NCBI GenBank assembly: GCA_021732285.1
Contig: JAKFVH010000013.1
Location: 1-56,711, forward strand
Length of the DNA: 56,711 nt
Origin: Reyranella sp.
GTDB taxonomy: Bacteria; Pseudomonadota; Alphaproteobacteria; Reyranellales; Reyranellaceae
Direction: 5' to 3'
Position numbers and translations under genes: made by a program. Positions 6,529 to 24,343 of this stretch are shown piece after piece. The notes under the pieces were generated by a model, which saw nothing but the letters and a program-made list of their open reading frames with translations, had not been told where the DNA came from and made no database searches. Every line of letters begins with the position of its first letter. Position 1 is the first letter of the stretch.

Positions 6529-7230
6529 CTATTCGGCGGAACGATGGCTAAGTGCTTCAAGCGCGCGGAGCCATTGGTTGAAATGCGGGCACTTCTCTCG
6601 GAGAGCGGGCAAGCCAATCTTACTTGCCACCACGGGACCTGCACTTGCCTTCCGGAATTCGTACTCTGGGATCCTTTTGATTATGCGCTTTGACGGAGCG
6701 CTGTCGGGCTCCTGATCGATAAGTTCCGGACCCGAGAAGTGCTCTACATCTCTGATCAGGGTATCAATGGCTCTGTCATGCTCAAGAAATTCCAGCCCTA
6801 GTTTCTGCGGATCGCTCAAGATCAGCGCCTCGAATTCATGTAGTTGGATATACGGAACGAAGTGGCGACAACCTTGCTCTGAAATCCTTTCAAAGAACGC
6901 TTTCTCCAGTCTCTCCACCCGCTCGTATGGATCGTCTAGTCGCATTGCCTCCGAATATCCGGGAAAATCGCTTGGAAGAGCGTAGAGATCAAACATTGTG
7001 GTGAACCAGCAACTAGAGCTACGTTCCTGTTTCCACCACCTGAGCAAATGTCGTTCTATTTGGCTGAAGCTGTCGATACCGCCCTTAAAACGTCTCTCGG
7101 TCGCCTTGCGTCTATTCTCTACGAGTTGAATAGCTCCGAATACATTTTGAAGAGCAAGATGCGGGACGATAGTACGATTGGCGAAAGCTTCTTCTGTTTG
7201 CCCCTCGACCACCGCACACAGGCGAATCAT
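6529..7230 (-). CDS. DUF4276 family protein (Toprim-like), partner of the AAA ATPase
   Basis: A 233-aa protein beginning at the ATG that overlaps the ATPase stop codon in an ATGA arrangement; longer upstream starts fall inside the ATPase gene. Motifs of the DUF4276 family are visible: VVEGQTEEAF at the N-terminus with the conserved Glu9, TTMFDLYALPSDFPG with the Asp of the metal site, and LHEFEALILSDP. I recall this family as related to Toprim-type nucleases, which would make it the effector of the pair, but nuclease activity is inference. Base composition is near 50% G+C, well below the neighbours, and the pair splits two unrelated metabolic operons, a sign of horizontal gain. Confidence 0.82.
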   Translation of the reverse strand: MIRLCAVVEGQTEEAFANRTIVPHLALQNVFGAIQLVENRRKATERRFKGGIDSFSQIERHLLRWWKQERSSSCWFTTMFDLYALPSDFPGYSEAMRLDDPYERVERLEKAFFERISEQGCRHFVPYIQLHEFEALILSDPQKLGLEFLEHDRAIDTLIRDVEHFSGPELIDQEPDSAPSKRIIKRIPEYEFRKASAGPVVASKIGLPALREKCPHFNQWLRALEALSHRSAE

Positions 7231-8351
7231 ATGGCAGCTTCTTTCGGGCGACCTCCAAGAACATTCTTGTTCCACAACTCTCCCAACGAATACTCTTCAA
7301 GCCACTCCTTCAGCGGCTCAGTCTGCAATCGGCGAAACGTGGAAGAACGCCCTTCACGTTCGACAACAACAACGTCCTGAGGTTCGAATTCCTCCAATAG
7401 TGAGGCAGATTGTGTTGCGACAATTATCTGCCGTTCAAGCGCGAGCGACTTCAGTAGTCCAGAAATGATCTTGAGGGCATAAGGATGTAGCCCAAGCTCG
7501 GGCTCATCCAAGACTACGAGAGAAGGCAGAGCCTCAACCGGCTGCAAAAGCAGAGTTACAAGCGACAGAGTTCGAAGCATGCCATCGGAAGCTTGATGGG
7601 CTCCAAAATCGTTGTCGCTCCCTTTCTCTCTCCATCGCAAGTATATCTTTCCAAACTCCGGTTCGAGAACGAAGTCTGAAAAGAAAGGCAGTATCTGTCG
7701 GATCGTTTCAACGATCCGCTGATAGTATTTTGGCTGCGTCTCACGCAGTCGAAGGAGTACAGGACCTAAGTTCGCCGCGTCTTCCTTCAGCATTAAATTG
7801 TCTGAGACGTCCCAGTATGTCTTTATGCGAGCAGTCAAGGACGTGTTGTGAAACTGATAAACAACATAGCGCCGAAGCAGATTGAGTATGACTCGAGCGG
7901 TATTGTCTGTAGCCGCTCTACCTATGAGCTGAGCCTCTGGATGACCTCCCGCGAACATCTTCCAAGGAGCCTGAGTCGTGTACCGAGAGTTGCTGAATCG
8001 GCAACGCTCGTCAGCAAAGATGAGTGTATCCGGCGCGGCGTAGAATAGACGGAACGCGTATTCGTTCGTACCGCTGCTAGTGACAAATTTGAGATGCGCC
8101 TCAATCTCTCGGGTCTTGGTCGGCCCATCATGAAGTAGCGAACTGGCACGGCCGTTCTGCTGGATAAATGTCTGCAGATTTCCGGCACCGGGAAGCATGA
8201 AACAAAGCATTCGGAAGAACGCGATCAGGTTGGATTTTCCCGAACCATTCGCACCAATCATGATGTTCAGCCGCTCGAACTGGAAGTCGTCGAGACGGGA
8301 AATGGACTTGAATCCACTCAGTGTCAGGGAAGCCAGCCGGTTTTCGTTCAT
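7227..8351 (-). CDS. AAA-family ATPase (OLD/SMC-like, AAA_15/AAA_21 type)
   Basis: A 374-aa ABC-type ATPase of the RecF/OLD-like group. The P-loop GANGSGKSN is at residues 33-41. A signature-like SDGMLRTLSLVTLLLQP comes about 20 residues before Walker B, LVVLDEPELGLHP, and the switch segment is IIVATQSASLLEEF. It has no C-terminal Toprim domain of its own. That role may be supplied in trans by the DUF4276 protein, with which it is translationally coupled. The layout recalls split ATPase plus Toprim defence systems such as PARIS, and contrasts with single-chain OLD nucleases. The sequence is AT-richer than the surrounding genome. Confidence 0.85.
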   Translation of the reverse strand: MNENRLASLTLSGFKSISRLDDFQFERLNIMIGANGSGKSNLIAFFRMLCFMLPGAGNLQTFIQQNGRASSLLHDGPTKTREIEAHLKFVTSSGTNEYAFRLFYAAPDTLIFADERCRFSNSRYTTQAPWKMFAGGHPEAQLIGRAATDNTARVILNLLRRYVVYQFHNTSLTARIKTYWDVSDNLMLKEDAANLGPVLLRLRETQPKYYQRIVETIRQILPFFSDFVLEPEFGKIYLRWREKGSDNDFGAHQASDGMLRTLSLVTLLLQPVEALPSLVVLDEPELGLHPYALKIISGLLKSLALERQIIVATQSASLLEEFEPQDVVVVEREGRSSTFRRLQTEPLKEWLEEYSLGELWNKNVLGGRPKEAAI

Positions 8352-8496: not shown

Positions 8497-8895
8497 TTAG
8501 GCTTTCATCACCGTCGCCTCGCCCAGCAGCGACACGTGCGCCGCCACGATGCGCCAACCTTCCGGCGTGCGCATCCAGGTGTGGCTCTGGCGGCCGGTCC
8601 TGTTGCCGCCGTGGCGGCGGAACTCGCAGTTGGCGGTGCCGAAGTCGCGGCCGTAGGTGACGATCCAGACCTTCAGCAGGTCGCGGTTCAGCACGAAGCC
8701 GGGATCGCGGCCGGCGCGGAAGGCGGCGATCTGGTCGTAGCCGTAGAGCTGCTCGCCGACGCCGTAGCGCAGGGTGTGCGGGCTCTTCCAGAAGAGCTCG
8801 TCGAGGACCGTGACGTCGTTGCTGTTCAGCGCCTTCTCGTAGCGATTGAAGGCTGCCGTCACCTCGGCGACGACCTCGGGGATGTTTATTTCCAT
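8497..8895 (-). CDS. atzH: AtzH-like DUF3225 / HpxZ protein (1,3-dicarboxyurea amidase candidate)
   Basis: A 132-aa NTF2-fold protein, the last gene of the ureide operon. Established knowledge: in Pseudomonas sp. ADP, AtzH (DUF3225) converts 1,3-dicarboxyurea to allophanate, and Tyr22 and Arg46 are needed. Here Tyr19 (FNRYEKALN) and Arg43 (HTLRYG) have the same 24-residue spacing. Other landmarks are [37 protein letters not shown]. The start was set at the ATG preceded by GGAAGGAG at five bases, rather than five codons upstream. It is separated from atzE by a palindromic repeat. HpxZ of oxalurate breakdown belongs to the same family and is an alternative role. Confidence 0.85.
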
Positions 8896-8913
8896 TTTTG
8901 CTCCTTCCAATTG

Positions 8914-9037
8914 CCGTCATCCCGACCGGAGCCGAGCGTAGCGAGGCGTGGTGGAGGGACCTTTTTTGGCTGCGCCAGACGACAAAATAGGTCCCTCGAC
9001 TACGCCGCCCTTCGGGCGGCTTTGCTCGGGATGACGG
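8914..9037. repeat. Intergenic inverted repeat, family B copy 1
   Basis: A 124-base element exactly fills the gap between atzE and atzH. It begins CCGTCATCCCGACCGGAG and ends CGGGATGACGG, with internal complementary blocks GGAGGGACCT and AGGTCCCTC and a strong small hairpin CCGCCCTTCGGGCGG. Copy 2 at 33451-33562 shares the termini and the GGGACC blocks. Both copies lie between co-directional genes. It may act as an mRNA-processing or stabilising hairpin within the operon, or be a miniature non-autonomous element. Confidence 0.7.
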
Positions 9038-10420
9038 TTATGCGGCCGGCGCACGCACGACACCCGCCTTTTCGAGATGGCGCGCGACGCGCAGCGCGGC
9101 GGCCTCGTTGTAGTGGTTGGCGATGACTTGTACGCCGATCGGCAGGCCGCCCGACTTGTGCAAGGGCACGGCCACGACCGGCAGGCCGATGAAGGAGATC
9201 GGCTGGGTGAACAGGCCGAGATTGGCGCGCACCGGCAGGTCGACGCCGCCCAGCTTCATCATCACCTGGCCGAGCTTGGGCGCGGTGCAGGGCGTCGCCG
9301 GGGCGAGGATGATGTCGACCTCCTCGAACAGCTTCTGCACCGCCGCGCGATAGTGCCGGCGGAAGCGCTGCGCCTTGACGTACCACGAGCCCGGCAACAG
9401 CGCGCCCGCCATCAGGCGCTCGCGCGTGTCGGGATCGAAGTCCTGCGGCCGCGTGCGCAGGCGCGGCAGGTGCAGCTGGCCGCCCTCGATGGCGGTGATG
9501 ACGTAGGCGGCCGAGCGCGCCACGCCGGCCTGCGGGATCACGATGGTCTTCGTGGCATTCAGCGCCTTGGCGACGGTGGCCACCGCCTCGAACGCCTCGG
9601 GCTCGCCGCCCCTGGCGAAGTAGTCGCCGGCAACGGCGATGCGCAGGCCGCCGATGCCCTCGTTCAGTAACGGCGCGGTCGGATCAGCCGGCCGGTCGGT
9701 GCAGACCGGGTCGTCGGGATCCCAGCCCTGCATGGCGTCGAACGACAGCGCGAGATCCTCGACCGAGCGGGCGATTGGCCCGAGATGGTCGAAGGCATCG
9801 ACGAAGGGAAAAGAGCCGGCGCGGCTCAGCCGGCCGTAGGTCGGTTTTAGCCCGAACAGGCCGCACAGCGAGGACGGCACGCGGATCGAGCCGTTGGTGT
9901 CGGAGCCGAGCGACAAGGGCACCTCGCCCGCCGCCACCGACGCGCCCGAACCGCCAGACGAGCCGCCGGTCATGCGCGTCGTGTCGTGCGGATTGCAGCT
10001 CGGCCCGTAATGGGCGTTCTCGCCGGTGAAGTCATAGGCGTACTCACCCATGTTGAGGCCGCCCACGAGGATCGCGCCGGCGGCCTCGAGCTTGCGCACC
10101 AGCGAGCCGTCGCGCGCGGCTTTGGGGCCGTCGACGTTGATCTTCGACCCGGCGCGCGTCGGCAGGCCTTTTATGTCGAACAGGTTTTTCACCGCGAAGG
10201 GCACGCCGGCCAGCGGGCCGCGATGGGTGCCGGCGTCGATCTCGGCGGCCCGCTTGCGGGCCCGCTCGGCTAAAACGTCGGTGAAGGCGTTGACGGTGGG
10301 CTCGCTGGTCTCGATGCGGGTCAGCGTCGCCTCGATCACGGCGGCGGCCTTGACCTTGCCGCTGATCACGGCACGGGCGATGTCGGTCGCGGTCGCCTGC
10401 TTGGAGAGCGGATCGGTCAT
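9038..10420 (-). CDS. atzE: AtzE-like amidase, 1-carboxybiuret hydrolase large subunit
   Basis: A 460-aa amidase-signature enzyme, close to the length of AtzE. The Ser-cisSer-Lys triad is visible as Lys78 (FAVKNLFD), cis-Ser154 (MTGGSSGGSGA) and Ser178 (SDTNGSIR). Family knowledge: AtzE deaminates 1-carboxybiuret to 1,3-dicarboxyurea and works as a heterotetramer with the small AtzG subunit. Its ATG overlaps the AtzG stop codon as ATGA, so the subunits are translationally coupled. It is part of the ABC-transporter operon driven from 16.2 kb. A relaxed amidase on another imported ureide is possible, but the atzG and atzH neighbours make the AtzE assignment strong. Confidence 0.9.
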   Translation of the reverse strand: MTDPLSKQATATDIARAVISGKVKAAAVIEATLTRIETSEPTVNAFTDVLAERARKRAAEIDAGTHRGPLAGVPFAVKNLFDIKGLPTRAGSKINVDGPKAARDGSLVRKLEAAGAILVGGLNMGEYAYDFTGENAHYGPSCNPHDTTRMTGGSSGGSGASVAAGEVPLSLGSDTNGSIRVPSSLCGLFGLKPTYGRLSRAGSFPFVDAFDHLGPIARSVEDLALSFDAMQGWDPDDPVCTDRPADPTAPLLNEGIGGLRIAVAGDYFARGGEPEAFEAVATVAKALNATKTIVIPQAGVARSAAYVITAIEGGQLHLPRLRTRPQDFDPDTRERLMAGALLPGSWYVKAQRFRRHYRAAVQKLFEEVDIILAPATPCTAPKLGQVMMKLGGVDLPVRANLGLFTQPISFIGLPVVAVPLHKSGGLPIGVQVIANHYNEAAALRVARHLEKAGVVRAPAA

Positions 10421-10605
10421 GGCCGGAACACCGGCGCGGAGGTCAGCTCGTCGTCGACTTCGACCTCGAGCAAGGGCTTGGCGATCAGCATCGAGCGCTC
10501 GTAGTTCACGATGACGTTGGCGCGGTACTGCGGCGCGATCGGCAGGCCGATCGCCTTGGCGGCTTCGTCGACCAGCGTGCCGACATCGGGCTTTTCGTCA
10601 GCCAC
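10417..10605 (-). CDS. atzG: AtzG-like DUF4089 small subunit
   Basis: A 62-aa GatC-like protein, the structural partner of AtzE. It carries the DUF4089 pattern VDEAAKAIGLPI, then QYRANVIVNYERSMLIAKPLLE, and ends ELTSAPVFRP, where the family has a xPAPVFRP tail. The start is GTG with a GAGGGAGAG ribosome site; the ABC ATPase stop is 15 bases upstream. A conserved small ORF joined by ATGA to an amidase is typical of the AtzG-AtzE pair, which derives from the GatCA transamidosome. Confidence 0.88.
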   Translation of the reverse strand: MADEKPDVGTLVDEAAKAIGLPIAPQYRANVIVNYERSMLIAKPLLEVEVDDELTSAPVFRP

Positions 10606-10620
10606 GGTCTCTCTCCCTCT

Positions 10621-11574
10621 TCAAGCGAAGTGACAGGCAGCCTGCCGCGCCGGGGCGACGGTGCGCAAGACCGGCATTTCGGCCGAGCAGCGCGGCTCGC
10701 CCCGCGGACAGCGGCCGTAGAAGCGGCACACCGTCGGATCGGGATCGATCGGGCTGCGCGGCTCGCCGCCAAGACGCAGGCGGCCGACGCGCTTGTCGGG
10801 ATCGGCCTGCGGGATGGCTGAGATGAGTGCGCGTGTGTAGGGGTGTTTGGGATCGGCGAACAGCTCGGCGGCCGGGCCGGATTCGACGATCTTGCCGAGA
10901 TACATCACCAGCACGCGATCGCACAGCAGGCGCACGACGTTGAGGTCGTGACTGACGAACAGATAGCTCATGCCGAGCTCGTGCTTGAGCTGCTGCAGGA
11001 GTTTCAGGATCACGACCTGCACCGAGACGTCGAGCGCCGCCGTCGGCTCGTCGAGGATCAGGAGCTCGGGCTCGACCGCGATGGCGCGGGCAATCCCCAC
11101 CCTCGCCTTCTGGCCGCCCGAGAGCTGGTGCGGGAAGCGGGTCAAAAGCTCGCGCGGCAGGCCGGTCATGTCAGCCAGCGCCTCGACGCGGCTTTTCAGC
11201 GCCGCGCCCGACATCTTCTTCAGGCGGCGGATGGGATCGGCGATGGCGTCGGCCGCCGTGTAGCGCGGGTTGAGCGAATCGCCCGCGTCCTGGAACACCA
11301 TCTGGATGCGCGCGCGGTTGGGGTTGCCGGCGAAGGCGCGCGCCCGCATGTCGGCAAGCTCGGTGCCGGCCAGCCGGATGCTGCCCGACGTCGGATCGAG
11401 CAGCCGGTTGATCAGACGGACGAGCGTGGACTTGCCGCAGCCCGATTCGCCCACCAGGCCGACGGTCTCGCCGCGACCGATGGTGAAGGTCACTTCGTCG
11501 ACGGCGTGCAGCAAGCGCTTGTTGCCGACGTCGAAGCGCTTGGCCAGTTCGGCGATGTCGAGCAAGGCCGTCAT
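10621..11574 (-). CDS. Dipeptide/oligopeptide-type ABC transporter ATP-binding protein (DppF-like)
   Basis: A 317-aa ATPase energising the importer of the ureide locus. It shows Walker A GESGCGKSTLV, signature LSGGQKARVGIARA and Walker B LLILDEPTAALDVS. The C-terminal extension has the cysteine cluster seen in DppF/OppF proteins (TVCRFYGRCPRGEPRC), which binds an iron-sulfur cluster in some homologues. The ATG overlaps the stop of the preceding ATPase gene (ATGA). Its pairing with the next ATPase as a heterodimer is standard for this transporter class. The substrate is inferred from neighbours to be a ureide or small amide rather than a peptide. Confidence 0.9.
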   Translation of the reverse strand: MTALLDIAELAKRFDVGNKRLLHAVDEVTFTIGRGETVGLVGESGCGKSTLVRLINRLLDPTSGSIRLAGTELADMRARAFAGNPNRARIQMVFQDAGDSLNPRYTAADAIADPIRRLKKMSGAALKSRVEALADMTGLPRELLTRFPHQLSGGQKARVGIARAIAVEPELLILDEPTAALDVSVQVVILKLLQQLKHELGMSYLFVSHDLNVVRLLCDRVLVMYLGKIVESGPAAELFADPKHPYTRALISAIPQADPDKRVGRLRLGGEPRSPIDPDPTVCRFYGRCPRGEPRCSAEMPVLRTVAPARQAACHFA

Positions 11575-12539
11575 AGCGGGTTCCAGCACGAGACGACGTG
11601 GCGCTCATCGACCACTCGGTGCGGCAAAGGTTTTGTGCAGTCGTCGATGCGCCGCTCGCAGCGGCCGCTGTAGCGGCACGCCGGCAGGTCGGGCCGGCGC
11701 AGATCGGGCAGGCCACCCGGGATCGAGGCGAGCTCGGCGAGCGAGACCGTCTCGCCCGGTGTCGCGGCCAAAAGCTTGGCCGAATAGGGATGACGCGGAT
11801 GGGCGAACAGCTCGCGCGCCGGCGCTGCTTCGACGACGTGGCCGGCATGCATGACGACGATGCGGTCGCAGTATTCGGCGGCCAGCGCGAGATCGTGGGT
11901 GATGAAGATCGTCGCCATGCCCGATTCGTGCGCGAGCTCGCCGATCAGGTCCATGATCACGGCCTGGGTGGTGACGTCGAGACCGGTGGTCGGCTCGTCG
12001 GCGATCAGGAGCGCCGGCCGGCAGGCGAGCGCGATGGCGATCATGATGCGCTGGCACATGCCGCCCGACAGCTCGAAGGGATAGGCTTCGACGCGGCGCT
12101 CGGGATCGGGAATGCGCACGCGCTTCAGCATCTCCACGGCGGCGCGCGGCGCGTCGGAGCGCGTGGCGCCGCCGTGGCGCACCAGCACGTCGGCGATCTG
12201 CTGGCCGACCTTGCGGATCGGGTTCAGCGCCGTGCGCGGGTTCTGGAAGATCATCGAGAGCTCGCGGCCGCGCTGCTCGGCCAGGTCGCGCTCGGAAAGC
12301 GCCAAAAGGTCGGCGCCGCCGAACAGGGCACGGCCGGAGGTGACCTTGCCCGCCGGATCGAGGATGCCCATGACGGCGAAGGCGGTGACCGACTTGCCCG
12401 AGCCCGATTCGCCCACCAGAGCCACGGTCTCGCCCTTGTCGACGCTGAAGCCGACATGGTCGAGCACCTTGACGATGCCCGAGCGCGTGCGGAACTCGAC
12501 CGACAGGTCCTCCACGGCGAGGGCAGGCACGGCGGTCAT
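11571..12539 (-). CDS. Dipeptide/oligopeptide-type ABC transporter ATP-binding protein (DppD-like)
   Basis: A 322-aa ATPase of the DppD group. Walker A GESGSGKSVTAF, signature LSGGMCQRIMIAIA and Walker B LLIADEPTTGLDVT are clear. The C-terminus carries the cysteine-containing tail (ACRYSGRCERRIDDC). The start was placed at the ATG overlapping the permease stop (ATGA), which removes 51 unrelated upstream residues. It acts with the DppF-like ATPase on the cytoplasmic face of the importer. Confidence 0.9.
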   Translation of the reverse strand: MTAVPALAVEDLSVEFRTRSGIVKVLDHVGFSVDKGETVALVGESGSGKSVTAFAVMGILDPAGKVTSGRALFGGADLLALSERDLAEQRGRELSMIFQNPRTALNPIRKVGQQIADVLVRHGGATRSDAPRAAVEMLKRVRIPDPERRVEAYPFELSGGMCQRIMIAIALACRPALLIADEPTTGLDVTTQAVIMDLIGELAHESGMATIFITHDLALAAEYCDRIVVMHAGHVVEAAPARELFAHPRHPYSAKLLAATPGETVSLAELASIPGGLPDLRRPDLPACRYSGRCERRIDDCTKPLPHRVVDERHVVSCWNPL

Positions 12540-13393
12540 GTGCGCTGCCTCGGGTCGATGATGTCGCGCAACCCGTCGCCTAACAGGTTGAAGCAGAACA
12601 CGGCCAGCATCAGCGCCGCGCCAGGGAACAGCGCGATCCACCATTCGCCGGACTGGATGAAGTTGGCGCCCTCGGCGACCATGATGCCCCACTCCGGCGC
12701 CGGCGGCCGCACGCCGAGGCCGATGAAGGAGAGGCCCGCGGCGTTGAGGATGGCGTAGCCCATGGTGAGCGACATCTGCACCATCATGATGGGCATGATG
12801 TTGGGCAGGACATGGCCCAGCAGCACGCGCGCCTCGCCGTTGCCCGAGAGGCGCGCCGCCTCGACGAAGCCCGCCTCGCGCCGAACGTTGGCCTCGGCGC
12901 GGGCGACACGGGCGTAGAGCGGAAAGTTGATGATGGCGGTGGCGATCACGATGTTGATCACCTCGTTGCCCAGCGCCGCCACGATGCCCATGGCGAGCAC
13001 GAACAATGGAAAGGCCATGATGGTGTCAGCCAGGCGGCCGACGACGCGGTCGGTCCAGCCGCCGAAGTAGCCCGCCGCCACGCCCGACAGGGCGCCCAGC
13101 ATGAAGGCCAGGATCACCGAGGCGAAGGCGATCGAGAGATCGAGACGGGTGGCGACCAGCACGCGGCTAAAGATGTCGCGGCCGAGCTGATCGGTGCCGA
13201 ACCAGTGTGCCGCCGACGGCGGCTTCAGCGCCATCGCGGCGTTGCTCTGCAGGGGACTGTAGGGTGCCAGCATCGGTCCGAAGATCGCTGCCACCAGGAG
13301 CATCGCGAACAGTGCGAAGGCCAGGCCCGTCACCGGGTTCTCCGAAAGCACGTAGCGGGCGTGGCGCAGCAAAGGAATCATTGCCGAGAGCAC
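12536..13393 (-). CDS. ABC transporter permease (DppC-like)
   Basis: A 285-aa inner-membrane permease. A first membrane segment near residues 22-42 is followed by the periplasmic segment typical of DppC (HWFGTDQLGRDIFSRV) and then five more hydrophobic helices. The EAA-loop motif that contacts the ATPases is visible as EAARLSGNGEARVLLGHVLPN. The GTG at 13393 was taken as the start; an ATG four codons later is an alternative. A 62-base perfect palindrome separates it from the DppB-like gene upstream. Confidence 0.88.
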   Translation of the reverse strand: MLSAMIPLLRHARYVLSENPVTGLAFALFAMLLVAAIFGPMLAPYSPLQSNAAMALKPPSAAHWFGTDQLGRDIFSRVLVATRLDLSIAFASVILAFMLGALSGVAAGYFGGWTDRVVGRLADTIMAFPLFVLAMGIVAALGNEVINIVIATAIINFPLYARVARAEANVRREAGFVEAARLSGNGEARVLLGHVLPNIMPIMMVQMSLTMGYAILNAAGLSFIGLGVRPPAPEWGIMVAEGANFIQSGEWWIALFPGAALMLAVFCFNLLGDGLRDIIDPRQRT

Positions 13394-13405
13394 TTTCTTT
13401 CAAGC

Positions 13406-13467
13406 TCTTCCGGACCGCGCGCTTCCAGCGCGCTCATGAGCGCGCTGGAAGCGCGCGGTCCGGAAGA
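13406..13467. repeat. 62-bp perfect palindrome between the permease genes
   Basis: Two 31-base arms meet at CATG without a loop: the left arm runs 13406-13436 and the right arm 13437-13467, with no mismatch. Blocks include TCTTCCGGACCGCGCG and its complement. It lies in the gap between dppB-like and dppC-like genes of one operon, and a related 51-base palindrome is on the other side of dppB. In RNA it would form a very stable hairpin that could end transcription in part or protect upstream mRNA. Confidence 0.85.
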
Positions 13468-13486
13468 ACATGACGTGCCAGGCATG

Positions 13487-14500
13487 TCAGCTATCCAGCC
13501 GCACACGCGGGTCGACCAGGCCGTAGAGCAGGTCGATCGCGAGATTCAGCGCGACGTAGAGGACCGCCATCGTCAGCACGAAGCCCTGCACCGGTGCATA
13601 GTCGGACGTGATCAGCGCATTCACGGCATAGAGGCCGATGCCGGGCCAGGCGAACACCGTCTCGACCAGCACGTTGGCGCCCAGCAGGAAGGAGAAGACC
13701 ATGCCGAGCACGGTGATGACCGGCAGCACGGCGTTGCGGAAGGCGTAGGTGAAGACGACGGTGCCGGGCGCCAGGCCGCTCGCCCGCGCGGTGCGGATAA
13801 AATCGCTGCCCAGCACCGACAGCATCGAGCCGCGGGTCATGCGGGCAAGCGGGGCGAGCGAGAAGATCGCCATCGAGATCGCGGGCAAGGCGAGCTGGCG
13901 CAGCGCCCCCCAGAACACCTCCATGTTGCCGGTGAGCGCGGAGTCGATCAGGTAGAAGCCCGTGATGTGCGTGGGTGGCGACAGGAAGACGTCGAGGCGG
14001 CCGCTCGGCGCCGGCGCCCATTGCAGCAGGTAATAGAAGACATAGGCGAACAGGAGGCCGGTGAAGAACACCGGCAGCGACACGCCGGCCGTGGTCACGA
14101 TGCGGCAGAGATGGTCGATCCAGGTGCCCTGTTTAACCGCCGCCAGCACGCCGAGTGGGATGGCGATGCCCACCGCGAGGATCAGGGCGAACAACGTGAG
14201 CTCGGCCGAGGCCGGCAGGCGGGTGGCGATCTCGGTCACCACCGGCTGGCCGGTGCTGAGCGAGTTGCCGAGATTGCCGTGCGCCAGGTCGACGATATAG
14301 CCAACGAACTGCTCGGGCAGCGACTTGTCGAGCCCGAGCTTGGTCCTGATCTCGGCGATCGCCTGCGGGCTTGCCGCCAGCCCCGCGAAGTAGGCCGCCG
14401 GATCGCCCGGCAACAGCCGCGTCAGCATGAAGGTGACCACGACGACCCCGACGATGCTCGGGACCGCCGTCGCCAGACGCGACAGGAGGAGCTTCAACAT
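13487..14500 (-). CDS. ABC transporter permease (DppB-like)
   Basis: A 337-aa permease with an N-terminal helix (residues 10-30) and the family hallmark LPGDPAAYF at about 30-38. Five further membrane segments follow. The EAA-like loop reads ARASGLAPGTVVFTYAFRNAVLP, and the C-terminus ends VYALNL-type followed by LVDPRVRLDS (here VALNLAIDLLYGLVDPRV), as in DppB. It is the second gene of the operon, after the binding protein, and is flanked on both sides by near-perfect palindromes. Confidence 0.9.
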   Translation of the reverse strand: MLKLLLSRLATAVPSIVGVVVVTFMLTRLLPGDPAAYFAGLAASPQAIAEIRTKLGLDKSLPEQFVGYIVDLAHGNLGNSLSTGQPVVTEIATRLPASAELTLFALILAVGIAIPLGVLAAVKQGTWIDHLCRIVTTAGVSLPVFFTGLLFAYVFYYLLQWAPAPSGRLDVFLSPPTHITGFYLIDSALTGNMEVFWGALRQLALPAISMAIFSLAPLARMTRGSMLSVLGSDFIRTARASGLAPGTVVFTYAFRNAVLPVITVLGMVFSFLLGANVLVETVFAWPGIGLYAVNALITSDYAPVQGFVLTMAVLYVALNLAIDLLYGLVDPRVRLDS

Positions 14501-14503
14501 CTG

Positions 14504-14554
14504 GGAGCGCGGGCCTCTGGCCCGCTCATGAAGCGGGCCAGAGGCCCGCGCTCC
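14504..14554. repeat. 51-bp hairpin palindrome between the binding-protein and DppB-like genes
   Basis: Perfect 23-base arms (14504-14526 and 14532-14554) enclose the loop CATGA. The arm contains GGAGCGCGGGCCTCTGG. It shares its layout, GC alternation and TCATGA-type centre with the 62-base palindrome at 13406-13467, so both probably belong to one dispersed repeat family. Lying directly after the binding-protein gene, it may allow higher expression of that gene than of the membrane genes, as known for hairpins in maltose and peptide transport operons. Confidence 0.85.
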
Positions 14555-14573
14555 GATGACGCCGTCGGCAATG

Positions 14574-16175
14574 TCAGCCCTTCACAAGCTGCCGATAGTC
14601 GAGCTGGCGGTGGAACCAGTAGCGGTAGCCGGTGACGTTCTTCTGCATCGCCACGTTCAAGAGCGGCTGATAGATCGGCACGCGCGGCACTTCCTCGAAG
14701 GCCATGTCGATAAAGCCCTTCACCGCCGCCTCGTATTCGGGCCCTGTGGTAAAGCGCGCCTTGTCTATGAGCGCGTCCATCGCCGGGTTCTTGTAGCCCA
14801 TCGTGTTGAAGACGGCGTTCTGGCCGTGATAGCACCAGAAGAAGAAGTACTCCGGATAGTTCAGCCAGCCGCCGAAGGCGTTGGTGATCATCGGCATGTT
14901 CTTCTTCAGAAGCTCGCCGCGCCAGTTGGCGCCCGGGATCTTGTTGATCGTGGCCTTGATGCCGATCTGCGCCAGGCTCTCCTGCACCAGAATGGTGAGC
15001 GGCTCATTGGTGCTGGCAAGCCCCAGGTCGAACGACAGCGTGGTCTCGAAGCCCTGCGGATAGCCCGCCTCGGCCATCAGCGCCTTGGCCTTGGCGATGT
15101 CGGTCTTGTAACCGTCCTTCTGCGGCCAGTAGACGCCCTTGAACTTGTTGTCGGCGCCGCCGAACAGCGGGATGGCCTGGCCGAACAACACTGCGTCCAT
15201 GATCTGCTGGTAAGGCACGGCATAGGCCACGGCCTGGCGGACCTTGACGTTGTCGAACGGCTTCTGGTTCACGTTCATGCCGAGATACATCATCGCGTTC
15301 TCGATCGGCGTGCCGATCACGGTGAGCTTGGGCGACGACTTCAGCTCGGAGAAATCCTTCGACGGCAGGTCGAACGACAGGTCGGCGTCGCCGCGCTCGA
15401 GCAGCGCGCGCCGGTTACCGGCCGACGGGATGATGCGCATGATGACGCGCCGGATCTTGGGCATCGGCCCGTTCTTCCAGTCGTCGTTGCGCGCATAGAC
15501 GACCTCCTGTCCCGGCTGCCAGCGCTCGACCTTGTAGGCGCCGCCCGAGGCATGGTTGTTCTTGCACCATTCCATGGCCCACGGATCGGTCGCGGTCGCG
15601 TTCTTCTTGCAGAGCTCGGAGTTCATGATCACCGGCACGGGCACGGCGAGGTCGGGCATGGTGAGCTTGTCGTCGCGGACGAAGTCGACGCGGAAGGTGT
15701 TGTCGTCGACCACCACGAACTGTTCCGGCTTTTCCAGCGAGCCCGCCTTCATCTGGAAGGTCGGGAAGCCGCCCACCGTGACGGCGCGGTCGAACGACCA
15801 CTTCACGTCCTTGGCGGTGATCGGCGTGCCGTCGTGGAACTTGGCGTCGCGGCGCAGCTTGAAGGTCACCGAGTTGGGCTTCAGGTCCCATTCGGTGGCG
15901 AGCTCGGGCTCGAGCTTGGTGTAGTCGTAATGGTCGTTGCCGTTGGCGTCCTTCTTGACGCCGTAGGTCATCAGCCGGTCGTGGGTGTTCCAGGAGACTT
16001 CGTAGGCCGGCCGATTGGCGCCGACGCCGTGGATGTCCATCGAGTTGGGCGGGCTCTCGCCCACGATCAGCAAGGTCTCGTTGCGCGCCTGCGCCTTGGC
16101 TTCGGACCAGATCGCCGGTGCCGCTGCCGCCGCGGCGCCCACTGCCGTACCCTTGAAGAACGTGCGACGCTTCAT
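14574..16175 (-). CDS. Periplasmic ABC substrate-binding protein, SBP_bac_5 family, Tat-type signal
   Basis: A 533-aa solute-binding protein, first gene of the ureide operon. The start at 16175 has AGGGGGC before it. The leader reads MKRRTFFKGTAVGAAAAAAP, a twin-arginine-like signal, with cleavage near EAKAQA. Family segments include TYGVKKDANG, AKDVKWSFDRAV, WQPGQEVVYARNDDW and VRQAVAYAVPYQQIM. It delivers substrate to the DppB/C-like permeases. SBP_bac_5 proteins bind peptides, nickel complexes, opines and others, so the ureide substrate is inferred from the co-transcribed atzGEH genes. Confidence 0.9.
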   Translation of the reverse strand: MKRRTFFKGTAVGAAAAAAPAIWSEAKAQARNETLLIVGESPPNSMDIHGVGANRPAYEVSWNTHDRLMTYGVKKDANGNDHYDYTKLEPELATEWDLKPNSVTFKLRRDAKFHDGTPITAKDVKWSFDRAVTVGGFPTFQMKAGSLEKPEQFVVVDDNTFRVDFVRDDKLTMPDLAVPVPVIMNSELCKKNATATDPWAMEWCKNNHASGGAYKVERWQPGQEVVYARNDDWKNGPMPKIRRVIMRIIPSAGNRRALLERGDADLSFDLPSKDFSELKSSPKLTVIGTPIENAMMYLGMNVNQKPFDNVKVRQAVAYAVPYQQIMDAVLFGQAIPLFGGADNKFKGVYWPQKDGYKTDIAKAKALMAEAGYPQGFETTLSFDLGLASTNEPLTILVQESLAQIGIKATINKIPGANWRGELLKKNMPMITNAFGGWLNYPEYFFFWCYHGQNAVFNTMGYKNPAMDALIDKARFTTGPEYEAAVKGFIDMAFEEVPRVPIYQPLLNVAMQKNVTGYRYWFHRQLDYRQLVKG

Positions 16176-16217
16176 TGATGCCCCCTGGCGTTTTTCAGCT
16201 TCCCCGGGAGCCTTGAA

Positions 16218-16234
16218 GGCAAGTTGCGTGCCAA
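16218..16234 (-). promoter_or_regulatory. Sigma-54 (RpoN) -24/-12 promoter for the transporter-atzGEH operon
   Basis: On the minus strand the sequence reads TTGGCACGCAACTTGCC. It matches the sigma-54 consensus YTGGCACGrNNNTTGCW at all core positions, with the required GG-N10-GC spacing. Predicted transcription starts near 16207, about 30 bases before the ATG of the binding protein. Sigma-54 control fits a nitrogen-scavenging operon activated by NtrC or a dedicated activator. No classical NtrC site was recognised by eye. This is a sequence match, not a mapped promoter. Confidence 0.75.
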
Positions 16235-16252
16235 AGCCCGCGCTCATGTGGC

Positions 16253-16266
16253 GGCTGATTTCAGCC
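16253..16266. promoter_or_regulatory. Candidate operator palindrome in the divergent atz control region
   Basis: GGCTGATTTCAGCC is a 14-base sequence with perfect 6-base arms around a TT centre. It lies between the sigma-54 promoter and the AtzF start, roughly 50 bases upstream of the predicted transporter-operon start. A second palindrome, GCGCTGCGCAGCGC, occurs at 16320-16333 inside atzF, near -115, but its GC repetition makes chance likely. Either could bind a regulator; the evidence is symmetry and position only. Confidence 0.4.
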
Positions 16267-16289
16267 TCATGCTTGTCTAAAACCACGCC

Positions 16290-18068
16290 ATGACCGCGCT
16301 CCTCGATCTCGGCGTCCATGCGCTGCGCAGCGCCTACGCCGCCGGCACCCTCGATGTCGGCCAGGTGATCGAGGAGGTACTGAAGCGCATCGCCGCGGCG
16401 GGCGACGACCGGGTGTGGATAACGCGCACGCCTGACGAGCATCTGCGGGCCGCGGCCGTGCGGCTCGATGCAAGGCGCGATGACATCGACCGCCTGCCGC
16501 TCTACGGCGTGCCCTTCGCGGTGAAGGACAATATCGACGTCGCCGACCTGCCGACGACAGCGGCCTGCCCCGGCTTCTCCTATCAGCCGCAGACGTCAGC
16601 CGAGGTCGTGCGCCGCCTGGTCGAGGCCGGCGCCATCGTCATAGGCAAGACCAACCTCGACCAGTTCGCGACCGGCCTGGTCGGCGTGCGCTCGCCCTAC
16701 GGCGTGCCGAAAAACCCGTTCGATCCGGCGTTCGTGCCGGGCGGCTCCAGCTCGGGCTCGGGCGTCGCCGTCGCCGCGGGCCTAGTGAGCTTCGCGCTCG
16801 GCACCGACACTGCCGGCTCAGGTCGCGTGCCGGCGGGCTTCAACAACATCGTCGGCCTGAAACCCACGCCCGGCCTTTTGAGCACCGCCGGCGTCGTGCC
16901 GGCCTGCAAGTCGCTCGATTGCGTGTCGGTGTTCGCGCTCTCGTGCGCCGATGCCGATGCGGTGCTGAAGGTCGCCGCCGCGCCGCAGGCAACGGCAGCG
17001 ATCGGCAAGGCTTTCCGCTTCGGCATGTTGCGGCACGCCGACGCCGAGTTCTGCGGCGATGATGCCTATGCCGCGCTCTATGCGCAGGCGGTCGGCCGCC
17101 TCAAGGCGCTCGGCGGCACGGCCGTGGAGATCGACTACGCGCCGTTCCGCGACGCCGCGGGGCTGCTTTACGGCGGACCGTGGGTCGCCGAGCGCACGGC
17201 CGCGGTCGGCGCTTTCATGGAAGCGGCGGACGACACGGCCGGCATCTGGCCGGTGACGCGCGACATCGTCTTGTCCGGCCAGGAGTACAGCGCCGTCGAC
17301 GTCTTCGAAGGCCAGTATGAGCTCAGCGAGCTCAAGGCTGCGGCGCTGGCGCAGATGGCCAAGCTCGACTTCCTGGCGCTGCCGACGACACCGACCGTCT
17401 ATCGCGTCGCCGATCTCGAGCGCGAGCCGGTGCTCTACAACTCGCATCTCGGCCACTACACCAACTTCGTCAATTTCTTCGGCTTGAGCGCGCTGGCGCT
17501 GCCGGCGGGCTTCCGGCCCGACGGCATGCCGTTCGGCATCACCCTGGTCGGCGCGGCACACAACGAGCGCGCCCTGCTCGCCTTCGGCGCGCGCTGGCAG
17601 CGCGAGGTACCGCTGCCTCTCGGCAAGACCACGAGCCAGCTCCCGGCTGCCATCCACGATCCCGCGCTGGCGGAGGACCGCGTCTCCATTGCCGTCGTCG
17701 GCGCGCATATGAGCGGCCTGCCGCTCAACGGCCAGCTCACCGAGCTGGGTGGGCGGCTCGAAAGCGCGGGCAAGACCGCTCCGGTCTATCGCTTCTATGC
17801 CCTGCCCGGCGGCCCGCCGCGGCGGCCCGGCATGGTGCGCGTCGCAAAGGGAGGCGGCGTGGTCGAACTCGAAGTCTGGAGCCTGCCGGCGGCCGCGGTC
17901 GGCAGCTTTTTACGCAAGATCCCCGCGCCTCTGGGGCTGGGCACGGTCACCCTGGCCGACGGTTCGGGCGTGACGGGCTTCTTGTGCGAAAGCCACGCCA
18001 CAACGGGTGCAGAGGACATCACCTCACTGGGCGGCTGGCGGGCCTATTTAAAGACCCTCCCCGTCTGA
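16290..18068 (+). CDS. atzF: Allophanate hydrolase (AtzF-like)
   Basis: A 592-aa two-domain enzyme that splits allophanate to ammonia and carbon dioxide. The N-terminal amidase domain has Lys79 (FAVKDNID), Ser153 (PGGSSSGSG) and Ser177 (DTAGSGRVP), the same spacing as Lys91, Ser165 and Ser189 of AtzF from Pseudomonas sp. ADP. The C-terminal domain from about 470 has the typical pattern HMSGLPLNGQLTELGG and FYALPGGPPRRPG. It is divergent from the transporter-atzGEH operon, with which it completes the lower part of the cyanurate/biuret nitrogen pathway. It is not fused to a urea carboxylase, and none is adjacent. Confidence 0.93.
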   Translation: MTALLDLGVHALRSAYAAGTLDVGQVIEEVLKRIAAAGDDRVWITRTPDEHLRAAAVRLDARRDDIDRLPLYGVPFAVKDNIDVADLPTTAACPGFSYQPQTSAEVVRRLVEAGAIVIGKTNLDQFATGLVGVRSPYGVPKNPFDPAFVPGGSSSGSGVAVAAGLVSFALGTDTAGSGRVPAGFNNIVGLKPTPGLLSTAGVVPACKSLDCVSVFALSCADADAVLKVAAAPQATAAIGKAFRFGMLRHADAEFCGDDAYAALYAQAVGRLKALGGTAVEIDYAPFRDAAGLLYGGPWVAERTAAVGAFMEAADDTAGIWPVTRDIVLSGQEYSAVDVFEGQYELSELKAAALAQMAKLDFLALPTTPTVYRVADLEREPVLYNSHLGHYTNFVNFFGLSALALPAGFRPDGMPFGITLVGAAHNERALLAFGARWQREVPLPLGKTTSQLPAAIHDPALAEDRVSIAVVGAHMSGLPLNGQLTELGGRLESAGKTAPVYRFYALPGGPPRRPGMVRVAKGGGVVELEVWSLPAAAVGSFLRKIPAPLGLGTVTLADGSGVTGFLCESHATTGAEDITSLGGWRAYLKTLPV

Positions 18069-22435: not shown

Positions 22436-24343
22436 ATGATCCGACGTGTTTTCATCAAGGCTGCCGCCTTAGGCCTGCTGTGCAGCCCGGCTTTCGCCGC
22501 AGACCCGCCCAAGCTGCAGGAAACTCCGATGTTCGCCGACCAGGTGAAATCGGGCGCCCTGCCGGCGGTGGACAAGCGCGTGCCGAAGCAGCCGTTGGTG
22601 GTGACGAAGTTCGCCGGCGGCGACGGCCCCGGCCAGCCGGGCGGCCAGCTCAACATGCTGGTGGCGAGCGCGCGCGATACGCGCCTGATGACGGTCTACA
22701 GCTACACGCGCCTGATCGTCTACACGCCCGAGTTCAAGCTGCAGTCCGATATCCTCGAAAGCTACACGAACAAGGATGACCGCGAATTCACCCTGACGCT
22801 GCGCGAGGGCCACAAATGGTCCGACGGCCAGCCCTTCACCACCGAGGATTTCCGCTTCTTCTGGGAAGACATCGCCAACAACAAGGAACTCTCGCCGTCC
22901 GGCCCGTCGGTCGAGCTTTTGGTCGACGGCCAGCCGCCCAAGGTCGAGATCATCGACGCGCGCACCATCAAGTTCACCTGGGACAAGCCCAACCCTTACT
23001 TCATCGAGAGCCAGGCGCGTGCGGCACCGCTCTTCCTGTTCCGGCCGGCGCACTACCTCAAGAAGTTCCATGCCAAGTACGCCTCTCCCGAGGACATCGC
23101 CAAGGCGGCCAAGGGCGGCCAGTCCGCCGGCAACTGGGTGCAGATCTACCGGCGGCATGACGTCATGTACGCCAACGACAACCCGGACCTGCCGACGCTC
23201 AACCCGTGGGTCAACACCACGGCCTCGCCGGCGCAGCGCTACGTGTTCGCGCGCAATCCCTATTATCACCGCATCGACGCCAAGGGGCAGCAGCTGCCCT
23301 ACATCGATCGCGTGATCTTCACCCAGGCGGCGACCAACCTGGTGCCGGCCAAGGCCGGCCTGGGCGAGGCCGACCTGCAGCCGCGCTATCTCAACATGCG
23401 CGACTACACCTTCCTGCAGAAGAGCGCTAAAAGCTCGGGCGTCGACGTGCGGCTCTGGGAATCGGGCTCGGGATCGCAGCTCGCGCTGTTTCCCAACCTC
23501 AACGCCAACGACGAGGAATGGCGCAAGCTGATGCGCGACGTGCGCTTCCGCCGCGCGCTGTCGCTCGCCATCGACCGCAACGAGCTGAACGAGGTCGTCT
23601 ATATCGGCCTCGCCAAGCCCTCCAACAACACGATCATGGAAGGCTCGTCGCTGTTCAAGGCGGAGTACGCCAAGAAGTGGGCGCAGTACGATCCAAAGCT
23701 CGCCAACAAGCTTTTGGACGAGGTCGGCCTGAACAAGAAGGACGGCCAGGGCTTCCGCCTGCTGCCAGACGGGCGGCCGGCGACCATCGTCGTCGAGCAT
23801 GCGAGCGAGGAGACCGAGGACGCCGACGCGCTGCACCTGATCGCCGAGATGTGGAAGAAGGTCGGCATCAAGATGCTGACCAAGCCGCAGACCCGCGAGA
23901 ACTTCCGCCTGCGCGCCTTCTCCGGGGAGGCGATCATGACCGCCTTCGCCGGCGCCGTGACCGCCATGCCGACGCCCAACACCAGCCCCAAGGAGTTCGC
24001 CCCCACCATGCAGGGCGGCCTGCAGTGGTCGCGCTGGGGCATGTTCGTCGAATCCAAGGAGCGGATGGGCGAGAAGTGCGACGTCGAGGCGGCCTGCAAG
24101 CTCCTCGACTACGTCAAGGAGTGGGAGCACGCCACCAACGAGAACGAGCGCCGCAAGGCCTGGGAGAAGATCCTGACGGCAAACGCCGACGAGGTCTTCA
24201 CCATCGGCACGGTCAACGGCATCCGCCAGCCCATCGTGGTCGGACCGAAGATCAAGAACGTGCCCAAGGAAGGCTATTACGCCTGGGATCCGGGGGGATA
24301 TATCGGCCTCTACCAGCCGGATACGTTCTGGATGGCGCAGTAG
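22436..24343 (+). CDS. ABC transporter substrate-binding protein, SBP_bac_5 family (orphan)
   Basis: A 635-aa periplasmic binding protein with a Sec signal (MIRRVFIKAAALGLL, cleavage near AFA-AD). It is longer than usual for the family, and carries the characteristic WSDGQPFTTEDFRFFWEDI, ARNPYYHRID and VRFRRALSLAIDRNELNEVVY segments. No permease or ATPase gene is adjacent, so it must use transport machinery encoded elsewhere or be a remnant of a split locus. It follows the TauD gene by 127 bases and ends at a compound palindrome. Confidence 0.88.
   Translation: MIRRVFIKAAALGLLCSPAFAADPPKLQETPMFADQVKSGALPAVDKRVPKQPLVVTKFAGGDGPGQPGGQLNMLVASARDTRLMTVYSYTRLIVYTPEFKLQSDILESYTNKDDREFTLTLREGHKWSDGQPFTTEDFRFFWEDIANNKELSPSGPSVELLVDGQPPKVEIIDARTIKFTWDKPNPYFIESQARAAPLFLFRPAHYLKKFHAKYASPEDIAKAAKGGQSAGNWVQIYRRHDVMYANDNPDLPTLNPWVNTTASPAQRYVFARNPYYHRIDAKGQQLPYIDRVIFTQAATNLVPAKAGLGEADLQPRYLNMRDYTFLQKSAKSSGVDVRLWESGSGSQLALFPNLNANDEEWRKLMRDVRFRRALSLAIDRNELNEVVYIGLAKPSNNTIMEGSSLFKAEYAKKWAQYDPKLANKLLDEVGLNKKDGQGFRLLPDGRPATIVVEHASEETEDADALHLIAEMWKKVGIKMLTKPQTRENFRLRAFSGEAIMTAFAGAVTAMPTPNTSPKEFAPTMQGGLQWSRWGMFVESKERMGEKCDVEAACKLLDYVKEWEHATNENERRKAWEKILTANADEVFTIGTVNGIRQPIVVGPKIKNVPKEGYYAWDPGGYIGLYQPDTFWMAQ

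Follow-up and report, generated by a model that had tools for sequence, protein, structure and literature searches.

The importer-atzGEH locus and related genes elsewhere in the genome

The DNA studied here, called the window throughout, is a stretch of 56,711 nucleotides from Reyranella sp., part of contig C13 in an assembly of 6.36 Mb and 313 contigs that is 81% complete. Between positions 8497 and 18068 it carries the genes of an ATP-binding cassette (ABC) importer followed by atzG, atzE and atzH, all on the minus strand, and a divergent atzF on the plus strand. A first-pass annotation had read these genes as a near-complete lower cyanurate/biuret pathway. This reading, including the tie to nitrogen scavenging and to an importer conserved with the pathway genes, is supported; AtzE, AtzF and AtzH exceed curated profile cut-offs and AtzG is recognised by PF13318.

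The minus-strand order is binding protein, two permeases, two ATPases, AtzG, AtzE and AtzH. The family-5 solute-binding protein (14574-16175) has a leader with an RR motif (MKRRTFFKG) and scores 272 bits with PF00496 on the longer open reading frame (ORF). The DppB-like (13487-14500) and DppC-like (12536-13393) permeases were assigned by translation and conserved synteny, the DppD/OppD-like (11571-12539) and DppF-like (10621-11574) ATPases by PF00005 and PF08352. Together they form the five-gene dipeptide-type importer that had been annotated, a family-5 (Dpp-like) system. ATGA overlaps occur at three junctions, between the second permease and the first ATPase, between the two ATPases, and between AtzG and AtzE (10417-10420), where the coupling had already been noticed. 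The start of the first ATPase was set by its overlap. The ORF of the second is open from GTG 11589, and its start is most likely ATG 11574, which overlaps the preceding stop. These overlaps, together with one conserved promoter element, suggest that the importer and atzGEH genes are co-transcribed. The element, a sigma-54 (RpoN) type -24/-12 sequence TGGCACG-N4-TTGC (16219-16233, minus strand), lies 43 nt before the start of the binding-protein gene and is oriented into it; no other exact copy occurs in the window (0.09 expected).

AtzE (9038-10420), predicted to be a 1-carboxybiuret hydrolase-type amidase, scores 689 bits against TIGR02715 (cut-off 426) and 721 against NF006631 (cut-off 461). 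Its best PDB match is an AtzE (6C62, 499.5 bits), and the amidase Lys-Ser-Ser triad is kept as Lys78, Ser154/155 and Ser178. AtzG (10417-10605) matches PF13318 with 49.5 bits (cut-off 24), yet has no NCBIfam match. AtzH (8497-8895, start codon ATG 8895) is of the HpxZ type, with 188 bits against NF033625 (cut-off 135), and its best PDB match is AtzH (6BJT, 166 bits). The tyrosine and arginine that had been pointed out earlier, Tyr19 and Arg43, correspond to Tyr22 and Arg46 of the published AtzH with identical spacing, and the pocket also keeps the published residues at Arg60, Arg63, Arg71, Phe92, Arg94 and Gln103. The one departure is His105 in place of the published Gln108, whose alanine variant is not among the five named impaired variants. 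AtzF (16290-18068, plus strand), a predicted allophanate hydrolase with a C-terminal AH_C domain (PF21986), scores 754 bits against TIGR02713 (cut-off 511) and 590 bits against 4GYR. The Lys-Ser-Ser triad ascribed to it is present as Lys79, the serine loop 153-155 and Ser177. Tyr294 and Arg302 are the same residues as in the solved allophanate hydrolase (4GYR), a pair that presumably has a substrate-contact role.

The ring-opening enzyme had been reported as absent. This is correct for the window and wrong for the genome: a search of the same genome found AtzD, a ring-opening amidohydrolase, on a different contig (G000:C46:27128-28171). Its score with the cyanuric acid hydrolase equivalog is 536 bits (cut-off 360); among solved structures the best cyanuric acid hydrolase gives 443 bits and barbiturase 277, and a barbiturase identity was rejected on these scores. 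BiuH, also suggested as a target for this search, gave no match over the cut-off of 370 bits in the Reyranella genome, which is only 81% complete. An apparent operon that includes a Pot-type importer ends with the AtzD gene, and this layout recurs in 12/12 further Reyranella AtzD loci that were fetched. A single atzDGEHF operon was not encountered; AtzD and AtzE lie on separate contigs in 41/41 Reyranellaceae genomes having both over cut-off. In 13/13 Reyranella AtzD loci, hydantoinase/oxoprolinase A- and B-like genes (L002:740-4797, minus strand) are transcribed away from the Pot-type importer and atzD.

Among eight isochorismatase-family matches in the Reyranella genome, one is TrtA (C23:19283-19945). 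Its best PDB match is TrtA (6XIX, 297 bits; biuret hydrolases give 201 and 191), and it agrees with the characterised enzyme in 14/14 catalytic, binding and specificity residues. This signature, tabulated from the available part of PMC7948467, includes the catalytic triad; the six TrtA positions differing in BiuH are Phe35, Asn41, Ala134, Glu160, Tyr187 and Ile205. A Bmp-type importer comes before the gene and an amidase gene after it. The first-pass proposal that the window importer takes the place of a missing upstream enzyme is not supported for this genome, which encodes both AtzD and TrtA, each beside an importer of its own and a sigma-54-type element. The amidase of the TrtA locus (L100:11811-13091) has a relative with 57% identity in L118 and recurs in L136-L139; it is 43% identical to one in Paraburkholderia, where a bmp importer, a hydrolase, that amidase and atzGEH form a run. 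A second isochorismatase gene at this locus (L100:5777-6637), divergent and with a non-TrtA signature, recurs in L136-L140.

Promoter scans kept only sites with GG and GC in the two cores and scored these over 11 fixed positions, with 200 first-order Markov shuffles per locus as the control. In 26 of 28 importer loci the region before the binding-protein gene keeps at least 9 of the 11 positions, and in 23 it keeps at least 10; the two Azorhizobium loci in this set have no match. Upstream of atzG at least 10 positions are kept in 18 of 25 rows. Of the remaining seven, four have importer genes ahead of atzG, another lies at a contig edge, one shows no atzF and one has 9 positions. An exact element stands 47 nt ahead of the start of the own TrtA importer gene, where 0.01 would be expected in the 20 kb, exact elements occur in five further loci of this type, and another lies just upstream at a Bradyrhizobium TrtA locus. 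The own AtzD importer operon has the element with one mismatch, and 12 of 13 AtzD-type loci keep at least 10 positions, the last one 9. Conserved across species 5' of all three own loci, TGGCAYG-N4-TTGC is predicted to be a sigma-54-type promoter. Beyond Reyranella/Bradyrhizobium-type genomes the element is not general.

In the AtzD loci a mere 12-14 nt separate the element (L002:4948-4977; L124-L135) from the likely start codon, so that the importer transcript may be nearly leaderless or the gene may start further on. The possibility that it is mere conserved coding sequence was rejected: it is kept in 13/13 loci at 9 or more positions, and its spacing to the start codon varies (12, 13 or 14 nt), which places it outside a fixed reading frame.

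According to the accessible text of PMC13207237, rpoN mutants of Bradyrhizobium DOA9 had lower atzE, atzF, dppB, dppD and dppF, and an RpoN site, TGGCACGAACCTTGC, was predicted at -43 of a peptide/nickel-type binding-protein gene. This site is identical to sites found here in Bradyrhizobium loci, the orthology of the DOA9 genes being presumed only.

Distribution in Reyranellaceae and Alphaproteobacteria

The family survey covered 75 Reyranellaceae genomes, and its statistics ignore phylogeny. Over cut-off were AtzD in 46 genomes, AtzE in 59, AtzF in 55 and BiuH in 31. AtzD, AtzE and AtzF occur together in 38 genomes, AtzE and AtzF without AtzD in 13, and AtzD without AtzE in 5. In genomes at least 95% complete, AtzE is present in 25/25 with AtzD and in 11/16 without it (Fisher p=0.006). 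TrtA-like genes, defined by score as BiuH-model rows of about 198-279 bits with residues read for G000 and G011 only, were found in 50 genomes, that is in 45 of the 59 with AtzE and in 5 of the 16 others (p=0.002). Among the 51 genomes with AtzE and AtzF, 45 have AtzD or a TrtA-like gene and 34 have both. In 42/42 genomes with AtzE and AtzF on one contig, AtzF lies upstream in divergent orientation; the gap is about 0.4-0.6 kb in 24 and about 6 kb, the size of the importer, in 18. In nine further genomes the two are on different contigs.

The window importer was counted as present at an identity of at least 63% or as fragments at about 89-90%. By this measure, read from search rows, binding-protein orthologues exist in 30 of the 75 genomes, and 26 of the 51 genomes with AtzE and AtzF have the importer. 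It tracks AtzF within the family (29/30 vs 26/45, p=0.0001), is orthologous across Reyranella, Bradyrhizobium and Azorhizobium, and precedes atzGEH in many genera. A lost aspartate in the binding protein, which we take to be the peptide-anchoring residue, was considered as proof of a non-peptide cargo and decides nothing: across 32 binding proteins the site is mixed, with Asn in Reyranella-/Ferrovibrio-type rows and Asp in Bradyrhizobium-type rows, Terrarubrum, Roseomonas and Salipiger.

A wider sample comprised 289 Alphaproteobacteria from 223 genera, drawn evenly; the tests ignore shared ancestry. It contained an AtzE match in 24 genomes (22 over cut-off), a TrtA/BiuH-family gene in 38 and a ring-opening amidohydrolase in 15. 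Both kinds of upstream enzyme are enriched with AtzE: the TrtA/BiuH family occurs in 15/24 AtzE genomes vs 23/265 others (p=2e-9), the ring-opening amidohydrolase in 7/24 vs 8/265 (p=5e-5). A TrtA/BiuH-family gene lies within 8 kb of atzE in 7/24 genomes, where random placement expects 0.09, and in all seven loci a gene carries the complete TrtA signature of 14 residues. A ring-opening amidohydrolase is that close in 1/24. At L146, permeases and ATPases related to those of the window (58-71% identity) are followed on one strand by atzF, TrtA and atzE; AtzH was not picked up in this stretch.

Similar associations appear in the best 80 of at least 575 GTDB loci nearest the window AtzE. The named entries closest by AtzE belong to Reyranella and unclassified Rhodospirillales, with a few differently labelled metagenome-assembled genomes among them. 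Because many of these stretches end at contig ends, the counts are lower bounds. The importer is present in at least 29 of the 80, with AtzF in the stretch in 25 of these 29. A TrtA-type gene is present in at least nine (Methylobacterium, Methylorubrum, Rhizobium, Oricola and others), of which seven have 14/14 signature residues and two 13/14, L069 being left out of the signature count. AtzD was found in none of the 80 within the stretches at hand, many of them ended by a contig edge. Genome-wide, among 24 named atzGEH genomes chosen by hand, mostly for the presence of the importer, a TrtA relative occurs in 18 (at least 53% identity; one of them split in two pieces), a ring-opening amidohydrolase in 12 and neither in 4. 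Eight TrtA relatives fetched from named genomes carry the full signature (8/8). A Terrarubrum plasmid combines in one run the binding protein, permeases and ATPase of a related importer, TrtA, a permease-like gene, atzF, atzG, atzE and atzH. A Salipiger plasmid (L086:3115-4490) has a related importer and atzGEH in a run that also includes two isochorismatase genes, whose residue pattern is a third one and matches neither that of TrtA nor that of BiuH.

A proposed pathway and its alternatives

We consider it probable that the window locus forms the common lower half of a ureide pathway for nitrogen starvation that is fed by AtzD and TrtA from elsewhere in the genome. With the reactions taken from the literature, cyanuric acid would enter by its own importer and be opened by AtzD to 1-carboxybiuret, and triuret would enter by its own importer and be deaminated by TrtA to the same compound. 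AtzGE would remove ammonia from 1-carboxybiuret to give 1,3-dicarboxyurea, AtzH would decarboxylate this to allophanate, and AtzF would split allophanate into ammonia and CO2. BiuH would not be needed, because the AtzGE-AtzH route bypasses biuret. As the three separate loci each have an ABC importer and a sigma-54-type element, joint induction would be expected, nitrogen limitation switching on all three via sigma-54.

Parts of this scheme are known. The text available of Tassoulas et al. (2020; PMC7948467) states that TrtA and AtzD both yield 1-carboxybiuret, which is hydrolysed by AtzEG, and that triuret can arise from chemically oxidised uric acid. In the triuret pathway described there, TrtA-(TrtB)-BiuH-AtzF, carboxybiuret goes via biuret and BiuH. 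Reyranella would share with it TrtA, AtzF and carboxybiuret as the TrtA product, but AtzGEH would carry carboxybiuret past biuret. With atzDGEHF of pADP-1 (Pseudomonas sp. ADP) the Reyranella system has AtzG, AtzE, AtzH, AtzF and a cyanuric acid hydrolase-type AtzD in common. Whereas pADP-1 has a Bmp-family importer near atzD, the Reyranella AtzD has a Pot-type importer and is on a separate contig; the divergent AtzF, the Dpp-type importer before atzGEH, TrtA as a second feeder and the sigma-54-type element are further differences.

The annotation had also pointed to the presence of atzF beside an importer and atzGEH. Clusters of allophanate hydrolase, ABC importer and atzG-atzE-atzH are already published (Esquirol et al. 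2018; PMC6219798). As far as the accessible portion of that paper goes, these contain the same kinds of genes, and in about half of them the importer separates the allophanate hydrolase gene from atzGEH; they are betaproteobacterial with AtzF on the same strand, whereas the Reyranella AtzF is divergent. The same portion suggests uptake of nitrogenous compounds without a specific substrate, feeder or regulator, and leaves unanswered why atzGEH clusters should be common when atzD and atzF seldom lie close by. The linkage and co-occurrence of TrtA provide a testable answer to this question, since TrtA makes the same intermediate from triuret. Because TrtA lies within 8 kb of atzE in more genomes than AtzD does (7/24 vs 1/24), triuret may often be the natural feeder of such "orphan" atzGEH clusters. 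The proposed pathway predicts a triuret route that skips biuret, plus one nitrogen-starvation switch for three distant gene sets. AtzF-importer-atzGEH arrangements, TrtA and AtzD are each already known; in the open-access literature searched we found no proposal of a joint TrtA-AtzGEH pathway, of a biuret-skipping triuret route or of a sigma-54 element shared by the three loci. Of the papers since 2021 listed by that search, only PMC12625717 mentions both triuret and AtzE, and in the part available AtzE is used in a phylogeny, with a proposed origin from gatA and no link to TrtA.

The leading candidate for the cargo of the window importer is triuret or a close relative. Triuret is favoured because the importer is linked to TrtA in L146 and Terrarubrum. 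Import of a carboxylated biuret-like compound, as the first-pass annotation had it, is chemically awkward; carboxybiuret is unlikely to be imported because it is short-lived, its decarboxylation having a half-life of about 20 min according to the accessible text of PMC7948467.

Several observations weigh against the proposed pathway. AtzE over cut-off is missing in 5/46 Reyranellaceae genomes with AtzD and in 3/21 with a TrtA-like gene and no BiuH. The Reyranella TrtA is paired with the Bmp-type importer and not with that of the window, which in the family shows no association with AtzD (p=0.24) or with TrtA-like genes (p=0.80) and is unsupported as a marker of either. Regarding the common promoter, 5/7 of the TrtA-AtzE loci of the class sample are without an element at 10 or more of 11 positions, only L144 and L150 having one, and the Terrarubrum element reaches only 9/11. 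The window AtzE is about as similar to HpxY of Klebsiella (53%) as to AtzE of pADP-1 (55%). In a tree of 46 AtzE rows, the window and other alphaproteobacterial rows, among them TrtA-linked ones, fall into a clade of 38 (97/100) that contains neither of these two and does contain Acidithiobacillus caldus, where the context is of the purine type. Such contexts were met in plasmid-search loci of Klebsiella, Zymomonas and Acidithiobacillus, and the NCBIfam label of the window AtzH is "HpxZ". Finally, 6/51 genomes with AtzE and AtzF have neither AtzD nor a TrtA-like gene (G002, G043, G048, G059, G070 and G035).

The last group bears on a reading in which the importer and AtzGEHF are a self-contained system for an undescribed ureide, with AtzD and TrtA as separate additions exploiting it. 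Five of the six, all except G035, have the importer (loci L110, L111, L112, L113 and L114/L115); four of these genomes are 98-100% complete and one 90%, and the sigma-54-type element is kept at 10 or 11 of 11 positions. That the module can occur without AtzD, as had been stated earlier, is thus borne out by these five. These genomes argue for a cargo beyond triuret, and a novel substrate for importer, AtzE and AtzF is possible in them. The orthology of the importer from Reyranella to Bradyrhizobium and Azorhizobium and the four named atzGEH genomes with neither feeder point the same way. Sequence comparison of the ORFs of L110-L113 and L115 (L114 was left out) brought up no convincing extra conserved enzyme beside the importer. 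Against a self-contained system stand the 45/51 AtzE and AtzF genomes that do have AtzD or TrtA-like genes, the recurrence of tight atzE-TrtA linkage in several lineages, and again the short life of carboxybiuret; we regard it as unlikely. That the importer is an ordinary peptide importer sharing the operon by chance seems improbable to us. Dpp/Opp-type models are its best matches, and the closest solved relatives of the binding protein are AgaA, peptide binders and YliB; but the same importer precedes atzGEH in many genera and atzF-TrtA-atzE in L146, and neither the binding protein nor the ATPases reach an NCBIfam cut-off among the matches listed.

HpxXYZ-type proteins act in a scheme from oxalurate to oxamate. 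By analogy, AtzGE in Reyranella could deaminate oxalurate and AtzH decarboxylate the product to oxamate, with AtzF belonging to another route. Klebsiella hpxXYZ, which we take to be oxalurate genes, are homologous to atzG, atzE and atzH and stand in a purine-type context, where hpxX-AtzE-hpxZ adjoins an aminotransferase gene and HpxU and no allophanate hydrolase is annotated in the stretch. The Zymomonas AtzE locus adjoins an allantoate amidohydrolase, A. caldus with xanthine dehydrogenase and gamma-glutamyltransferase falls inside the AtzE clade of the window, and the HpxZ match of AtzH fits as well. Between carboxybiuret and oxalurate as the AtzGE substrate, the tree does not decide. The gene context speaks against oxalurate: an oxalurate route yields no allophanate, yet AtzF is divergent and upstream in every same-contig genome (42/42); in the interval 402-24343, the ORFs scanned included neither a recognisable gamma-glutamyltransferase nor an enzyme acting on allantoate or ureidoglycolate; and AtzD and TrtA co-occur with AtzE. 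We therefore give the oxalurate system a low probability. On the A. caldus plasmid (L105:1297-12997) the genes for xanthine dehydrogenase, ureidoglycolate lyase, gamma-glutamyltransferase and a ring-opening amidohydrolase form a mixed purine/cyanurate-like cluster with atzGEH.

The shared pathway proposed for Reyranella could be extended to the class, though here we have more doubt than confidence. Alphaproteobacterial AtzGEH would mainly serve a biuret-bypassing triuret pathway, under sigma-54 in Reyranella/Bradyrhizobium types, AtzD would have been added later for cyanurate, and the same importer would feed an undescribed ureide where TrtA and AtzD are lacking.

Further features of the window

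An ORF antisense to the permease genes (12812-14635, plus strand) gave no match in the domain-library scans. Three gaps inside the operon (8914-9037, 13400-13473 and 14504-14554) are filled by long inverted repeats that resemble repetitive extragenic palindromes; their arms of 55, 37 and 23 nt are 80%, 95% and 100% complementary, respectively. Another family-5 solute-binding protein (PF00496) is encoded at 22436-24343 on the plus strand. Just 3' of atzH, an AAA_21 ATPase gene is followed by a DUF4276 gene (6529-8351, minus strand); the two look like a defence-type pair unrelated to the ureide pathway.

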